A DNA stretch of 40,171 nucleotides from Methylococcaceae bacterium (lineage in GTDB: Bacteria > Pseudomonadota > Gammaproteobacteria > Methylococcales > Methylococcaceae). Under the pieces are notes generated by a model, which saw only the letters and a list, made by a program, of their open reading frames with translations, had not been told where the DNA came from and ran no database searches. Positions 10,589 through 33,645 of this stretch are shown in pieces. Within the stretch, counting starts at the first letter, position 1. Every line of letters starts with the position of its first letter. The stretch covers positions 1 through 40,171 of the forward strand of contig CADDZF010000011.1 in the NCBI GenBank assembly GCA_902812445.1, written 5' to 3'. The position numbers and the translations under genes were made by a program.

Positions 10589-11950
10589 TTAGCGCTTGTC
10601 CTTGAATTTAATACCCAGCAAGTTCAACTTCCGGTATAAGTGAGTGCGTTCAAGACCGATGGCAGACGATAGTTTCGCCACACTACCGGCGTATTTTTCC
10701 AGATGATACTCCAGGTAGGCCTTTTCAAATCGCTCGCGCGCTTCTTTCAGTGGCAGCTCGTAGAAGTCGTTTTGCTGACTTTTTATTTCGCCCAAAGCTT
10801 CCCCAAGCGAGGTCTTAACCTCATCCATCCCGATCTCGTCCCCGGTGCCCAGAATCAGCAGGCGCTGCACCAGGTTTTTGAGTTCCCGCACATTCCCGTG
10901 CCAGGCGTAATTGCGTAGAAAGTTCTGCACGGCGACGGGGAATCTCCTGAAGGAAAGTTTTTCCCGGCTGACGAAATAATCGACATAGAATCTCAGCAAC
11001 TCAGGAACATCCTCGTTATGTTCTCGTAATGGCGGAATCTTCAGGGTCACCACATTGAGCAGATAATAAAGGTCCTTGCGGAACGTTGCGGCCCGAACCT
11101 CATCCTCCAGCGATCTTCGCGTGGAGGCGATGATGCGGACATCGACGCTGACCTGCTCGCTGCCGCCCACACGCAGGAAGGCCCGCGATTCCAGCGCGCT
11201 CAACAAGCGCAGTTGAGATTCGTCATCCATGTCGGTCACTTCGTCCAGAAACAACGTGCCGCCGTGAGCCTGCTCGAATAAGCCGTAATGAATCCGGTTG
11301 CCGTCTTCCCGGCCGAAAAATTCGATGGCGGCATAATCGGGCGCGATGGCGCCGAGCCCCACGTCGATAAAAGGCCCATCCCGCCGCGAACTGTTGGCGT
11401 GCAGATAGCGCGCGAAGGTTTCCTTGCCGGAGCCGGGTTCACCGACGAAAAGGACGCTGGCGTCGTGCTGAGCCAAGCGCTTGACCTGCTCTTTCAAGCG
11501 TTCGATGGCGGCGCTTTTGCCGATCGGTTCGACAAAGGTGTCGACCCGCCGCCGCAAGCCGATATTTTCACGCCGGAGCCTGGCATTCTCCAACGCCCGT
11601 TCGACCGTCAGCAGCAACTTGGCCAGCGAGATGGGCTTTTCCAGAAAGTCATACGCGCCGAGGCGGGTGGCCTCCACCGCGGTCTCCACGGTCGCATGGC
11701 CTGACATCATGACGACCGGACAATCCAATTGATTGCCTTCCATCCATTCTTTCAGCAGCGTGATGCCGTCCGCATCAGGCATCCAGATATCCAGCAGTAT
11801 CAAATCAGGCCTGCGTTCGGCCCTCGCCTTGCGGGCCGCCGCAGCGTTTTCCGCGGTCGCCACCTGATATTCCTCGTCCTCGAGTATTTCCTGCAGCAGC
11901 TGGCGAATATCCGGCTCGTCGTCCACTACCAGCACATAGGCCTTTGTCAT
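10589..11950 (-). CDS. ntrX: NtrX-like response regulator, AAA+ domain without GAFTGA
   Basis: A 453-residue response regulator partnered with the adjacent NtrY kinase. The receiver has the acidic pocket VDDEPD and phosphoacceptor Asp54 in LILLDIWMPD. The AAA+ domain shows Walker A GEPGSGKE (about 170-177) and Walker B GTLFLDE (about 231-237). A Fis-type helix-turn-helix ends the protein (SAIGLERTHLYRKLNLLG). Where other sigma-54 activators carry GAFTGA, this protein reads FFGREDGNRIHYGLFEQA, so the sigma-54 contact loop is missing. It therefore probably does not activate sigma-54 RNA polymerase and may act at sigma-70 promoters. Its start overlaps the end of ntrY by 4 bases. Confidence 0.93.
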   Translation of the reverse strand: MTKAYVLVVDDEPDIRQLLQEILEDEEYQVATAENAAAARKARAERRPDLILLDIWMPDADGITLLKEWMEGNQLDCPVVMMSGHATVETAVEATRLGAYDFLEKPISLAKLLLTVERALENARLRRENIGLRRRVDTFVEPIGKSAAIERLKEQVKRLAQHDASVLFVGEPGSGKETFARYLHANSSRRDGPFIDVGLGAIAPDYAAIEFFGREDGNRIHYGLFEQAHGGTLFLDEVTDMDDESQLRLLSALESRAFLRVGGSEQVSVDVRIIASTRRSLEDEVRAATFRKDLYYLLNVVTLKIPPLREHNEDVPELLRFYVDYFVSREKLSFRRFPVAVQNFLRNYAWHGNVRELKNLVQRLLILGTGDEIGMDEVKTSLGEALGEIKSQQNDFYELPLKEARERFEKAYLEYHLEKYAGSVAKLSSAIGLERTHLYRKLNLLGIKFKDKR

Positions 11951-24691: not shown

Positions 24692-24768
<77 letters not shown>

Positions 24769-24874
24769 ATTGAATCCCGGTTGAACAATACGTTACAAAC
24801 CTCTTTTCCCGTTGTTTCACGGCCGATTTTCCCAAGGGGTAACCGTAACGTGAAACTCGTCCTCCATAGCCTTT

Positions 24875-25535
24875 TCACATCCCATCCAGCACAGCAACCG
24901 CTGCTCTGACGGTGGCCGGCACGAGATGCGCATACACCTGATCGGTAATGCGAATATCGCTGTGGCTGAGTACCGCTGAAACGGCCTCGATCGATACTCT
25001 TGCCTGTGCCAACCAGCTCCCACAGGTTCGCCTCAGGTCATGTGGATGCACGTCCTGGAGATTTGCCTTGCTGACCGCAGCTGCGAATGCTTTCCTGATG
25101 CTGGCGATCCTTTCCTCTCCCTTGGTGCAAAATACCCAGGGGCTGTCGGAACAGTATTTATCCCGGAAGCTTTGCCGAGCCAGTATGGACGACTGGGCTT
25201 CCCTGTTGAGAGGGACACTGCCGATCTTGCCGTTTTTCTGCTCGCCCGAGGTCAGGTAATCAGCCCTTCCTTGAGATCGATCTGTTTCCACTCCAGCCCG
25301 AGAATTTCGCCAGGACGCATGCCTGTGTAAATCCCCAGTTTAATGAGTCCACGAGGTACGGCGCCTTCAAGCGCCGGCTGGCTGCCGCAAGCAAGGCAGC
25401 AGCCTCCTCATTGCTCAGCCATCGTTCCCCGCGTCCTTGAGCTTGCGTCCATGCGCAGGATTGGGCAAATCCCAGTCCGACTCCACCCCAAGCAAACTCC
25501 GACGTGGTTCAATATCAGCAGACACCTGAGGTAAG
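24875..25535 (-). pseudogene. Tyrosine recombinase (phage-type integrase), frameshifted and truncated
   Basis: The catalytic domain is recognisable but spread over several frames. In reading order (minus strand): an N-terminal remnant DWDLPNPAHGRKLKDAGN, then WLSNEEAAALLAAASRRLKAPYLV, then LIKLGIYTGMRPGEILGLEWKQ (Arg I region), and finally one open frame (24875-25291) with LTSGEQKNGKIGSVPLN (Lys region), HPHDLRRTCGSWL (HxxR), LSHSDIRITDQVYAHL (His and nucleophile Tyr). At least three frame changes lie between about 25260 and 25440. The N-terminal arm-binding domain is missing, cut off by an IS3-like element at about 25535. The gene reads toward the tRNA-Pro, typical of an island integrase. 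It is very unlikely to be functional. Confidence 0.88.
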
Positions 25536-25566
25536 GAGTTGAGCTCTGCAACTGAGGTGAGAGACG

Positions 25567-25856
25567 ATGGCGGGAAAACTCTATACGAAGGAGTTCCAGC
25601 AGGACGCGGTGCGGCTGGTGACCGAGCACGGATCCACCCAGGCCGAAGCGAAGCGGGTCGCAACCTGAAGATCAACCCGAACAGGCTAGGGCGATGGATT
25701 CAGAAGTTCCGGGCCGATGAGAACGAAGCTTTTCGTGGCAATGGCAAACTGACAGGGGAGCAGGAAGAATCAGGGCGACTGCAAGAGGAGAACCGTAGGC
25801 TGAAGCAGGAGCGGGACATCCTGGTAAAGGCGGCGGCCGCGAAGGAAGTGGGCTGA
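25567..25856 (+). pseudogene. IS3-family transposase OrfA, frameshifted
   Basis: The first frame starts at an ATG at 25567 and reads MAGKLYTKEFQQDAVRLVTE, the usual OrfA helix-turn-helix start. It stops after 33 codons near 25668. The protein continues in another frame with INPNRLGRWIQKFRADENEAF and then a leucine-zipper-like coiled coil ([20 protein letters not shown]) to a TGA at 25854-25856. Together they make a complete OrfA of about 96 residues with one frameshift at about 25650-25660. Confidence 0.85.
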
Positions 25857-26185
25857 GGTATCCGTTCATTGATCGGGCAAAGAAGGCCTATTTCGTGAAA
25901 CGGCTGTGTCGTGTGCTGGGCGTGAGCCGGGCAGGCTATTACGCCTTTGTCCGGCGGCAGCGGGGCTTTCAGGTGGCAGCGCCAAACCGGCTGTGGGCGT
26001 CGGCTATCAGCTATATCTGGACCACCGAGGGATGGCGGTATTTGGCGGTGGTGATCGATCGGTACGCCCGCAAGGTCGTGGGAGTAGTCCCGGGGCAAGC
26101 GTCTCATCAGCGCCTTGGCGTGGGACGCGTTACGGATGGCACTATCGCGCCGGCAACCGCCCCATGGCCAACTGCTGCATCATAG
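25856..26185 (+). pseudogene. IS3-family transposase OrfB remnant with internal deletion
   Basis: The frame opens [18 protein letters not shown] directly at the OrfA stop, as expected for programmed frameshifting in IS3. [17 protein letters not shown] is the HTH_21 segment. It is then joined directly to [20 protein letters not shown], so about 80 residues that normally separate these parts are missing. The segment [20 protein letters not shown] is the integrase core, but the first catalytic Asp of the DDE triad (usually in TDITYI) is Ala here. A later frameshift and loss of the rest of the core follow. It cannot encode an active transposase. Confidence 0.85.
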
Positions 26186-26190
26186 CGACA

Positions 26191-26628
26191 ATCAGAATCT
26201 CCCTGTCCGATGTTCCCGGGCGGCTTGACTTTCACCGCGATCGACCTGCCGGGGAAGATAGGCCGCTGCGATGTGTTCCAGGTGGCCTGACCCGCACTCC
26301 GATCGATCCTGACTTGTGTCTTTCCCCGGACCTGTCGGTCACCCGGGAACACCTTGCGGTGAGGCAATGCCTTGCCGGTGCATGTGACTCGAGAAGGGCC
26401 TGACGCTCTGTCGCTTTACTGTCTTGTCCAGGCATTCGGTTCAGGCTAAGCCACCTTCCCGGTGGTTGAGAACCGGAGCGCTATCATGTCAGAGGAAAGG
26501 CCGTCGTAGTGGCTTTAGCCGGCTCGCCGGCACATTGAGGAAGCCTTTGCGCGAAACCGCCTCTATCTCGAGCAGTCCGCCAGCGAACTGCTCGAAATCC
26601 AGCCGCCCGGATTTCCCTGCCCAGAGCT
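26191..26628. other. Non-coding stretch after the IS remnant
   Basis: All reading frames here are short and none shows a recognisable protein. The stretch is probably rearranged accessory DNA. Confidence 0.35.
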
Positions 26629-26979
26629 TCACTGCCCGGTGGGCCGAAGCTCTGGCCGACTCGGTTCACGACACCCTGCTCGAGGCGGCGCGCTACCCGC
26701 CGCATCTGACGTAGGGGCGGGCTCGGCACCGCCTTCGGCTGTTTGGGAAGGAGACCCCGGAAAGCGCTCGGCCGCCCCGCCTGTAGGCGATAAACGGCCG
26801 ACGTAGGCGCCGGAAATGACAAGCTGGCGTTGTACGGTATCCAGGTTGGCGCTCAGGATGAGCGGAGCCGGCCCTTCCGCGCGCAGGGCGCCGCTCGGCC
26901 CCCCGGCGTCGGCAGTCTGCCCAGTACTTATCAACAGGGTTACCGCGAAAATACCACCATATCGTTTGTACATGACCAT
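26629..26979 (-). CDS. Short secreted protein of unknown function, possible IPT/TIG-like remnant
   Basis: A 116-residue frame with a GAGGAG ribosome binding site before the ATG at 26979, spaced much like that of the nearby peroxidase gene. Residues 1-24 look like a signal peptide (basic start, hydrophobic core, cleavage near ADA). The segment LILSANLDTVQRQLVISGAYVG resembles the first strands of IPT/TIG-type beta domains. The remaining 55 residues are low in structure and rich in Pro, Gly and Ala, as if the frame had shifted out of its original domain. I do not recognise a family with confidence. It may be a truncated pseudogene. Confidence 0.4.
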   Translation of the reverse strand: MVMYKRYGGIFAVTLLISTGQTADAGGPSGALRAEGPAPLILSANLDTVQRQLVISGAYVGRLSPTGGAAERFPGSPSQTAEGGAEPAPTSDAAGSAPPRAGCREPSRPELRPTGQ

Positions 26980-27476
26980 TTCTCCTCATCCAGCTAAAAA
27001 AGCAAGGTCTTGGCATCGGGAAGACCAGTCGTCGTCGCGGGCGATGCCTGCAGGGGGAAAACCCGGGAATCCCGAAGACTGGGGCTGGAACAAGCTGCTT
27101 GGATTCAGGCAAAAGCGTTTCCTATTCATGCGATTTACCCTCTGGTTTCACAAGATTGCGGGGTATCCGCGGCGATCAGTGCGCCACGGCATGAACGATG
27201 AGGTGAGTGTAGTGAACTAAACTGGCCAATCCTCATTCATTGATATCACAACGAGGGGCTCTCTGATCCTCATCGAGGAGGCCTTGCAGCGTCCCCTGAG
27301 GACAGAAGCTAAACCTCTCAGCGTTACCATTAGGAAACTCCGTGCCAAAGCGCGAAGTTTTCTAACTATTTCCACTGGATCAGCGAGATAGGAGATGCAA
27401 CCTGCCCCCGAAGCGCGGATGACCCCTGCGACACAACTTGACAGGGGGGAGGCGCAGGATTAAAGGAGCATGGGTT
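26980..27476. other. Intergenic region between the short secreted protein and the sigma-54 regulator
   Basis: No convincing gene is seen. A possible, weak -24/-12 element on the minus strand lies at 27001-27016 (ATGCCA, 5 bases, TTGCT), 20-35 bases before the secreted-protein start. It has TG in place of the conserved GG at -24. Confidence 0.35.
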
Positions 27477-27543: not shown

Positions 27544-28983
27544 TTAAGTTTCCCCCATAGCGGGAGGAGCATCGTGCTTCAACCGGCTGAGGCGTTTGTT
27601 CAAGGCCTGCCGCGACAGGCCCAGCAGGCCGGCGTCCACGCCCTGGTTGCCCTCGGCACGCCGCAAGGCTTCCGCGATGAGGGCCGATTCGGCCTCGCGC
27701 AGGGTGGGAAGCGAGTCCGGGAACCAGACGGTGGCCGGAGTGGTTTCGGGCGGCATCTCGTTCTTGGCGAGAGAGGTGCTCGCTGCGATCGCGTCTTTGA
27801 AGCTTTGCAGCGAGAGCGTCCGGCCCTGGTGACGGGTGACCGCATCGAGGACCAGCGCTTCGAGCTCCCGCACGTTGCCGGGGAAAGGGTAGGTTCTGAG
27901 CAACGAATAAAGCGCGAGCGGCACGTTCGGCACCGGCTTGCCGAGTGCACGGGCGGCTTTCTCCAGGAAGTGATGGACCAACAGCGGCAGGTCCTCCGGG
28001 CGCTTGCGGAGCGGTGGCAGCTGGAGGTGATGAGTGCGCAGCCGATAGTAAAGGTCCTTGCGAAACGCCCCCTCTTCGACCCGCTGCACCACGTCGTAGT
28101 GGGTCGCGACGACCACCCGTGCCCGGTTCTGGCGCGGCTGGTCGGCACCGAGAGGATAATAGCTGCCGTCTTGCAGAAGGCGCAGCAGTTTCACCTGAGA
28201 GGCGGTAGTGAGATCGCCGATCTCGTCGAGAAACAGGGTGCCCTCCGCCGCCTGGGTGATCAGCCCTTCCCTCGGTCCGGTGGCCCCGGTGAAGGAGCCC
28301 TTGGCATGGCCGAACAAGGTGTCGGAGAACAGGGTATCGTCCAGCCCCGCCACATTGACCGCCATCAGCTCGCCCGGGCGTCTCGACAACCGATGCAGCG
28401 CCTTCGCGATGAGTTCCTTGCCGGCGCCGGTGTCGCCCGTGATCAAGACCGGCCAGGGAGAGGGAGCGATTGCCTCGATGTAGCGAAAGATGGCGAACAT
28501 CGGCTTGCTCTGCGTGACGATCTCCGCGAAGGCCTCAGGCTCATGGGATGTGTCAGCCAGGAAACGGTCCTTGAGGGACCGCACCTCATCCCGCAGGCTG
28601 CGTAGCTCTAATCCCTGCCGCACGGAGGACACCAAACGATTGTTCTCGACAGGTTTCACCAGATAGTCGATCGCACCTGCCTGCATACAGTGGACCGCGG
28701 TGTCGAGGTCATTGGTGGCCGTCATCACGATCACCGGGATATCCGGGTAGTCGGCCGCCACCCGCTCAAGGAGCGCCTGGCCCGAGAGATGCGGCATGCT
28801 GAGATCGAGCAGGACAAGGCTAACCGCCTGTTCCGCCAATAACGGCAAGACCGCCCGGCTGTCCTCCACGGTGAGGACGTGGGCGATCCCGGCGGTGCGC
28901 AGCAACAGGCCGACGCTGTGAAGCAGTTGCGGCTCATCGTCGACGACGAGGATGGGTAGCCGTGCCGTGACCGTCTGCACCAT
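27544..28983 (-). CDS. Sigma-54-dependent response regulator (NtrC family)
   Basis: A 479-residue three-domain activator. The receiver has VVDDEP (acidic pocket), phosphoacceptor Asp60 in LVLLDLSMPHLSG, and Lys110 in YLVKPV. The AAA+ domain has Walker A GDTGAGKE (about 183-190), a GSFTGA loop (229-234; a Ser variant of GAFTGA with the critical Phe and Thr kept), and Walker B GTLFLDE (about 248-254). The C-terminal Fis-type helix-turn-helix is LLGLSRQALNKRLSRLK. It is downstream of, and probably partnered with, the histidine kinase gene, separated by 214 bases. A strong sigma-54 promoter lies in the same locus at 33398, a plausible target. Confidence 0.95.
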   Translation of the reverse strand: MVQTVTARLPILVVDDEPQLLHSVGLLLRTAGIAHVLTVEDSRAVLPLLAEQAVSLVLLDLSMPHLSGQALLERVAADYPDIPVIVMTATNDLDTAVHCMQAGAIDYLVKPVENNRLVSSVRQGLELRSLRDEVRSLKDRFLADTSHEPEAFAEIVTQSKPMFAIFRYIEAIAPSPWPVLITGDTGAGKELIAKALHRLSRRPGELMAVNVAGLDDTLFSDTLFGHAKGSFTGATGPREGLITQAAEGTLFLDEIGDLTTASQVKLLRLLQDGSYYPLGADQPRQNRARVVVATHYDVVQRVEEGAFRKDLYYRLRTHHLQLPPLRKRPEDLPLLVHHFLEKAARALGKPVPNVPLALYSLLRTYPFPGNVRELEALVLDAVTRHQGRTLSLQSFKDAIAASTSLAKNEMPPETTPATVWFPDSLPTLREAESALIAEALRRAEGNQGVDAGLLGLSRQALNKRLSRLKHDAPPAMGET

Positions 28984-32343: not shown

Positions 32344-33306
32344 TTCTCCTCCTTAACCCGGGGTATTGGAGGGAGTTAAAAAAGTAGCCCCCTTGATACG
32401 GGGCGAGAGACATTGCCCCCTGGCGACATACTTAGCATTCGGAGTTTCGGGAAACTGCTCGATTCGTTCGCCTTCGCATCACTCCCCGTCGTGCAGCACT
32501 TGCCTATGCTTAACCGGCGTGGATGCTGCCTCGCCGATCGGGCCGCGGTATGCCCGGACATCGTGCTGCGTCAATGGTAACAGGAAAAATGAGCAACGGT
32601 CATGCAGGCTGACAAAAACCGTGTTTCCGCCGCGCTCGGCAAGAGGAAAATGGGACGGTTTGGCTTGAGCCAAAGCCGGGCGCCAGTTGAAAGCTCGACA
32701 TGGCGAAACCAATTACGAAGCGCAACAGGAAGGTCTTCACGACCTGGTAGAGGACGTGCAGAACAGGATAATACCGGCGGCGGGAGGGCACACAATGTAT
32801 ACCGATAACCTTGAGTATGTCGGGAACTGTGAAATCGTGGCATTTCAACTATATCGGCGGGTACACGGGTCTAACGGTTGGACCTCCGCAATTTGGGGTG
32901 GCGATCTTTTCCCGGTGGAAGGAAGTGATGTCGCGTGCAATACGGGAACAGAGTACACCCTCCACAATCCTTAACTGGCACTTGCGATTCGTTAGCGGAA
33001 AAGGCCGGGCCGCTGTGGCCCGGCCCTGACTATCATCGGCAAAATTAAACTTTCGTTCAGCGGCTAGAGCCTGTTATGAGGGCATAAGCCAAAAGGGTCG
33101 GTCAAATGGTTCAGACACGATTAGTCTCCTTCTTCGGCCTGCCTGCCCCTTTCGACGCGCCGCGCCGCTGCACGCTGCTGCGCTCAACCGGGCTTGAGCT
33201 TTCTCATCCAGCTTGGGCTTTGGCCGGGTCGGCTCGCCGGCAAGCGCGAGAAGAGCTTTTCGGAGCCGGGCAGCAAGCTGTTCAATAACCCTACTGTGCA
33301 TGTAGA
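32344..33306. other. Long intergenic region, left part
   Basis: No reading frame here has convincing homology. Frames of up to 95 codons on the plus strand (such as 32687-32974) and about 80 codons on the minus strand (33074-33319) exist but lack ribosome binding sites or recognisable motifs. A weak minus-strand -24/-12 element (CTGCAT, 5 bases, TTGCT) lies at 32592-32607, about 250 bases upstream of the peroxidase gene; its -24 part lacks the conserved GG. Confidence 0.4.
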
Positions 33307-33328
33307 TTTTACCGACCAATCGGTAAAA
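33307..33328. promoter_or_regulatory. 9-base inverted repeat, candidate enhancer site for the sigma-54 regulator
   Basis: TTTTACCGA and TCGGTAAAA form a perfect 9-base dyad with a 4-base spacer. Its centre lies about 106 bases upstream of the start site predicted from the sigma-54 promoter at 33398. That is the usual distance for an upstream activating sequence of a bacterial enhancer-binding protein. There is no T-run after it, so a terminator is less likely. Identity of the binding protein is inferred. Confidence 0.6.
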
Positions 33329-33397
33329 ACAACGTAAGGCAGGTACTTAGGATGCCTTCCCATGCAGTCGGTTAGCCATTCGCTTTGCGCCGTGACC

Positions 33398-33413
33398 GGG
33401 CACATTACTTGCT
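33398..33413 (+). promoter_or_regulatory. Sigma-54 (-24/-12) promoter of the di-iron protein genes
   Basis: GGGCACATTACTTGCT matches the consensus TGGCAC-N5-TTGCW at every position except the first, with exact spacing between the GG and GC pairs. The predicted start is about 33424, giving a leader of about 220 bases before the ATG at 33646. A sigma-54 response regulator with an intact contact loop is encoded in the same locus, and an inverted repeat lies at enhancer distance upstream. Confidence 0.75.
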
Positions 33414-33645
33414 CACTGTGCCAGACACATCTACCTGCGCCTACAATAGCCACCAGGCTGCACAGGTCAGATGACAGCAACAAGAAATTACACAGGGAAA
33501 CAGTTTTAAACCCACTGCGTGGCAGATGTCCCGTGCCAATGCTCGGAGGCGGTTGTTTGAGGTTTCCAAGTTGCATTGAGCACGACATGACGGGACTGCC
33601 CTACGCGGTGATCGATTTCGAGGGGTTCGCCGTTAAGGAGGCATT

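Follow-up and report, generated by a model that had tools for sequence, protein, structure and literature searches.

What drives the expression of two adjacent ferritin-like genes, g1 and g2, in the genome of a methane-oxidising bacterium, a Methylococcaceae relative? The original prediction had placed a sigma-54 promoter before the pair and had proposed as its activator the neighbouring response regulator, encoded in the same locus with its kinase and a diheme peroxidase, the whole forming a redox- or peroxide-responsive module. We analyzed the whole 40,171-nt stretch (the window), the rest of the genome, and loci from related genomes. Kinship searches group this genome with the Methylococcaceae, the family being deduced from the named relative in L066. 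It is likely that positions 33302–33413 comprise a sigma-54 promoter and its enhancer for g1-g2, activated by a regulator encoded on another contig, the C2 bEBP, within a wider regulon. The features on which this reading is built are listed in Table 1.

Table 1 Features of the window and of related sites. Positions without a contig or locus prefix are those of the window.
Feature	Position	Strand	Remark
Neighbouring sigma-54 response regulator (GSFTGA)	27544..28983	-	Receiver, AAA+ and Fis domains
Its predicted operator, CCTGTCAAGTTGTGTCGCAGG	27425..27445	-	Conserved in isolate 8 (L046)
Sigma-54-like site TGGCACGGAGTTTCCT, its own predicted target	27332..27347	-	Conserved in L046
Predicted-target regions of the CCP-HK-RR unit	window 27332-27445 and 26629-26979; L046:7927-8980; L049:3996-5112		
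Predicted enhancer (UAS), tandem operators GTAGattTTAC-N10-GTAAaaaCAAC	33302..33333	+	
Sigma-54 (-24/-12) promoter element, predicted, GGGCACATTACTTGCT	33398..33413	+	Predicted transcription start near 33424
g1, ferritin-like protein, 387 aa	33646..34809	+	Eight long helices
g2, ferritin-like protein, 244 aa	34848..35582	+	Di-iron ligand set; distant symerythrin relative
C2 response-regulator bEBP	G000:C2, locus L226:4717-6087		Contig other than the window's
Pattern match 1	33309		g1
Pattern match 2	C2:19013		Upstream of CsbD, DUF3096 and DUF3309 genes
Pattern match 3	C2:25205		Upstream of EF-hand protein, DUF4398, DUF4398-OmpA and response-regulator bEBP genes
Pattern match 4	C15:7584		Upstream of GT4 glycosyltransferase gene

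The ferritin-like pair and the element before it

In 90 of 93 loci, as here, g1 is followed by g2; in the window, 38 nt separate the two genes. The g1 protein shows 68–83% identity across many Pseudomonadota and is conserved across phyla, though it matches no Pfam or NCBIfam family; no match was found among the sequences of solved structures either. Its predicted model (mean pLDDT 91) supports a ferritin-like fold. Ferritin-type chains align to residues 31–304 and 90–245 of this model with a Z of about 13, a value that the helical-bundle arrangement alone can reach, and g1 is probably one ferritin bundle inserted into another, apparently a nested duplication. Many of its Glu and His residues are invariant. 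The g2 model is also a ferritin-like helical bundle, and the protein carries on its four helices the E, ExxH, E, ExxH ligand set of ferritin-like di-iron proteins (E95, E130xxH133, E187, and E220xxH223, invariant in 29 sequences). An iron or peroxide chemistry may be presumed for the pair. Foldseek searches with both models gave no match below E 0.001.

Among known proteins, g2 resembles symerythrin/rubrerythrin-like proteins in the order of its ligands and in a weak profile match (E 2e-5), but differs from them by a long N-terminal extension and by its pairing with g1; its match to DUF892/ferritin is sub-threshold. The fold of both models is common to bacterioferritin/Dps and YciF-type (DUF892) stress ferritins, from which g1, known like g2 from models, is set apart by its eight helices, its apparent nested duplication, and the lack of a family model.

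The element before the pair was confirmed as a match to TGGCAC-N5-TTGCW with one mismatch (G for T at the first base) and exact spacing, and it does face the two-gene operon, the ATG of g1 lying 248 nt downstream. Its GG (-24) and GC (-12) cores are intact and 10 nt apart, as in sigma-54 promoters; rpoN is encoded in the genome. The sequence GGGCACATTACTTGCT has no second copy in the genome of 3.2 Mb. Taken by itself, however, the match is weak and does not exceed the chance level, as the window holds three one-mismatch matches against 1.49 expected (19 of 100 shuffles reach three) and the whole genome 113, against 86 for the reversed pattern.

So common a motif could be a chance match, with g1-g2 transcribed from another promoter. 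The leader would indeed be long, a weak sigma-70-like site (9/12) lies at 33418–33447, and no sigma-54 site was found upstream of g1 in the closest relatives (isolate 8, Methylocaldum-like, Methylobacter, and Nitrosospira). The sequence-closest orthologues alone suggested this reading, which the wider set of orthologues overturned. The count of sigma-70-like sites equals the shuffle mean, which argues against the alternative start. A chance match at 33398 is also at odds with the combined operator and promoter pattern described below, found four times in the genome and not at all in the control, and found again at g1 in other genera; we therefore consider it quite unlikely.

Predicted promoters and tandem operators among g1 orthologues

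We surveyed 92 g1 upstream regions of 400 nt with a sigma-54 matrix that we built ourselves on the published consensus as it is generally known, a site being a score of at least 12. Sites were found in 17 regions, about a fifth, where about 2 would be expected (1.9 from shuffles and random flanks), and the opposite strand of the same regions gave 6. Strong sites mostly lie 45–138 nt before the start codon, compared to 248 nt in the window. This comparative evidence supports a sigma-54 promoter for the di-iron gene pair. The proposed conservation of the promoter together with a five-gene set was borne out for the promoter, in those 17 of the 92 orthologues, and not for the gene set, which was recovered in none of the other loci examined: there, the regulator, kinase, and peroxidase trio is separate from g1-g2.

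As a separate observation, the Methylocaldum-like g1 upstreams (L005–L007), without a sigma-54 site, carry the perfect palindrome GTTTCGAAAACGAAAC, suggesting a different regulator there.

In the window, 64 nt lie between the predicted enhancer and the sigma-54 site below it; with its centre about 106 nt above the predicted start, the enhancer falls within the range of about 80–200 nt upstream expected of such sequences. The enhancer agrees with GTAA-N3-TTAC-N10-GTAA-N3-TTAC at 13 of 16 bases and contains a perfect palindrome, TTTTACCGACCAATCGGTAAAA, at 33307–33328. This operator was first spotted by eye and tested afterwards. Within 250 nt above the site, TTAC-N8..10-GTAA was present in 6 of 24 sigma-54-positive g1 upstreams and in none of the 68 others, where random flanks would predict 0.04; this tally is in part post hoc, because the 24 were picked by matrix score and position and include some lower-scoring sites. 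The six are those of the window, Marinobacter, Herbaspirillum, Noviherbaspirillum, Paucimonas, and a MAG, so that the combination of operator and promoter is found again at g1 of other genera. Six orthologous g1 upstreams match 13 to 15 of the 16 double-operator bases, and 0.4% of random 450-nt stretches reach 13. The operator was not recognisable in many sigma-54-positive g1 orthologues; the Cupriavidus promoters show, by eye, a possible variant, GCAA-N3-TTGC.

The predicted regulon and the candidate activators

The genome was then searched with the operator core and the promoter combined (TTAC-N8..10-GTAA, 66–96 nt, GGCR-N6-TTGC). Two of the four matches (Table 1) flank the bEBP locus on C2. 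The gene for a Cys-rich Csp-like (copper-storage-like) protein on C12 has a fifth site upstream, in which the spacing is longer. At each of the four sites other than that of g1, the double operator GTAA-N3-TTAC-N9/10-GTAA-N3-TTAC is perfect. A one-mismatch palindrome on C129 was rejected as a regulon site, as it falls within a gene. The element at 33398 stands above chance because of the orthologous promoters and because its operator pair is common to other promoters of the same genome.

The C2 bEBP has the receiver, AAA+, and Fis domains and the GSFTGA motif of NtrC-family two-component activators. Among 21 genomes with a sigma-54 site at g1, 19 had an orthologue of it (E<1e-103), vs 4 of the 20 without such a site (Fisher p=6e-6, uncorrected for phylogeny). 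The two exceptions are a genome whose g1 contig encodes a 60% C-terminal fragment and a MAG whose assignment is doubtful. The bEBP or a receiver-less form is present, and the g1 site absent, in G143, which has the bEBP itself, and four other genomes. Noviherbaspirillum sp. Root189 has a perfect double operator and a sigma-54 site upstream of the bEBP, and in Burkholderia pyrrocinia two such bEBPs adjoin the gene of a copper-binding four-helix protein.

Around these orthologues we also observed that the bEBP of Burkholderiales (L301–L307, L311, L312, and L300) has a second paralogue linked to it that lacks the receiver, and that an encapsulin and a DyP peroxidase are encoded near the B. pyrrocinia pair.

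In the mechanism that we propose, the C2 bEBP would bind both GTAA-N3-TTAC operators of the enhancer and, upon some inducing signal, would activate sigma-54 RNA polymerase at 33398, leading to transcription of g1-g2. It would also control its own operon, from the EF-hand protein to the bEBP itself, as well as the CsbD/DUF3096/DUF3309 group, the GT4 glycosyltransferase, and the Csp-like protein. Through such common control, g1-g2 would belong with these genes to a regulon for envelope and metal stress. Counting against this explanation are the imperfect g1 operator, the distance of the promoter from the start codon, the closest relatives without the site, the genomes with the bEBP but no g1 site, and the sigma-54-positive orthologues without a recognisable operator.

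The same imperfect operator could mean that the promoter is real but served by another of the roughly ten bEBPs with G[A/S]FTGA that the genome encodes. The pair of operator and promoter at g1 is, however, also found at the C2 bEBP's own operon, and across genomes this regulator tends to be present where the g1 promoter is, making another activator unlikely.

The neighbouring regulator at 27544–28983 is physically near g1-g2 and has the domains and motif of a sigma-54 activator. As originally claimed, the window has no other sigma-54-competent regulator, though the genome encodes about ten: the other receiver-AAA+ protein (10589–11950) lacks a GAFTGA-type motif and is thus probably not a sigma-54 activator. 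Yet the neighbouring regulator has its own predicted operator and sigma-54-like site, both kept in isolate 8, and the best match to the CCTGTCAAGTTGTGTCGCAGG-type operator between 32344 and 33645 reached 14/21, the background level. The CCP-HK-RR trio and g1-g2 lie apart in all other genomes examined, that of the closest relative included, and isolate 8 has a regulator of 87% identity but lacks the g1 sigma-54 site. Because of this separate conserved operator and promoter, and of the separation of the trio from g1-g2 elsewhere, the neighbouring regulator is probably not the activator on sequence grounds. That it acts at 33398 and couples the di-iron proteins to the diheme enzyme within a single redox module appears very unlikely, and the link drawn between this regulator and g1-g2 was not supported.

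The neighbouring locus offers observations of its own. The CCP-HK-RR trio, a MauG-like enzyme, a DAHL kinase, and a response regulator, is conserved as a unit among other Methylococcales and has a secreted protein as its predicted sigma-54 target. In Methylomonas-like genomes, this target ends in a PEP-CTERM-like tail, as judged by eye, and has a TGGCAC-N5-TCGCW site and an inverted pair of operators upstream; the predicted target in isolate 8 is unrelated by Pfam, and that in the window is a short, possibly decayed ORF. The protein encoded at 10589–11950 adjoins an NtrY-like kinase and is NtrX-like. Positions 24692–26200 hold a tRNA-Pro(CGG), the sole match of the Rfam search, followed by integrase-like and IS3-type transposase fragments (read by eye), a degraded mobile-element edge.

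Relation to known systems and meaning

Sigma-54 regulons under a two-component bEBP are of a known kind. With the NtrC, AtoC, and ZraR-type regulons, the C2 system shares a receiver-AAA+-Fis regulator with a linked histidine kinase, an enhancer some 100 nt upstream, promoters of the -24/-12 type, and predicted autoregulation; it differs by its tandem GTAA-N3-TTAC operator and its target set. The C2 bEBP scored below the NCBIfam cut-offs of all three equivalogs (AtoC 425/714 bits, NtrC 406/558.6, and ZraR 339/760). PrsK/PrsR (PEP-CTERM) belongs to the same family of sigma-54 two-component activators and recalls the tail of the neighbouring regulator's Methylomonas-type target, but both that regulator and the C2 bEBP fall under the PEP_resp_reg cut-off. 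The neighbouring CCP gene strongly matches the CCP_MauG domain but stays below both the MauG and MbnH cut-offs of NCBIfam (154/444 and 167/363 bits), and on present evidence it is outside the g1-g2 regulon.

The GTAA-N3-TTAC regulon is newly predicted here. The tandem operator with its target set was not found in the literature searched, which leaves subscription papers mostly uncovered, so that this negative is weak evidence of novelty. We give an even chance to an undescribed sigma-54 stress regulon of Beta- and Gammaproteobacteria, in which this bEBP family and tandem GTAA-N3-TTAC enhancers would govern copper storage, the nested-fold di-iron pair, and stress proteins of the envelope/CsbD type.

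The case of g1-g2 illustrates that the nearest regulator is not necessarily the acting one. The CsbD, DUF3309, DUF3096, DUF4398, and Csp-like proteins, like g1 and g2, occur widely and are little understood, and the predicted regulator, operator, and promoter would offer a direct route to what induces them. The regulon would also allow testing whether iron and copper sequestration belong to a single sigma-54-driven response.
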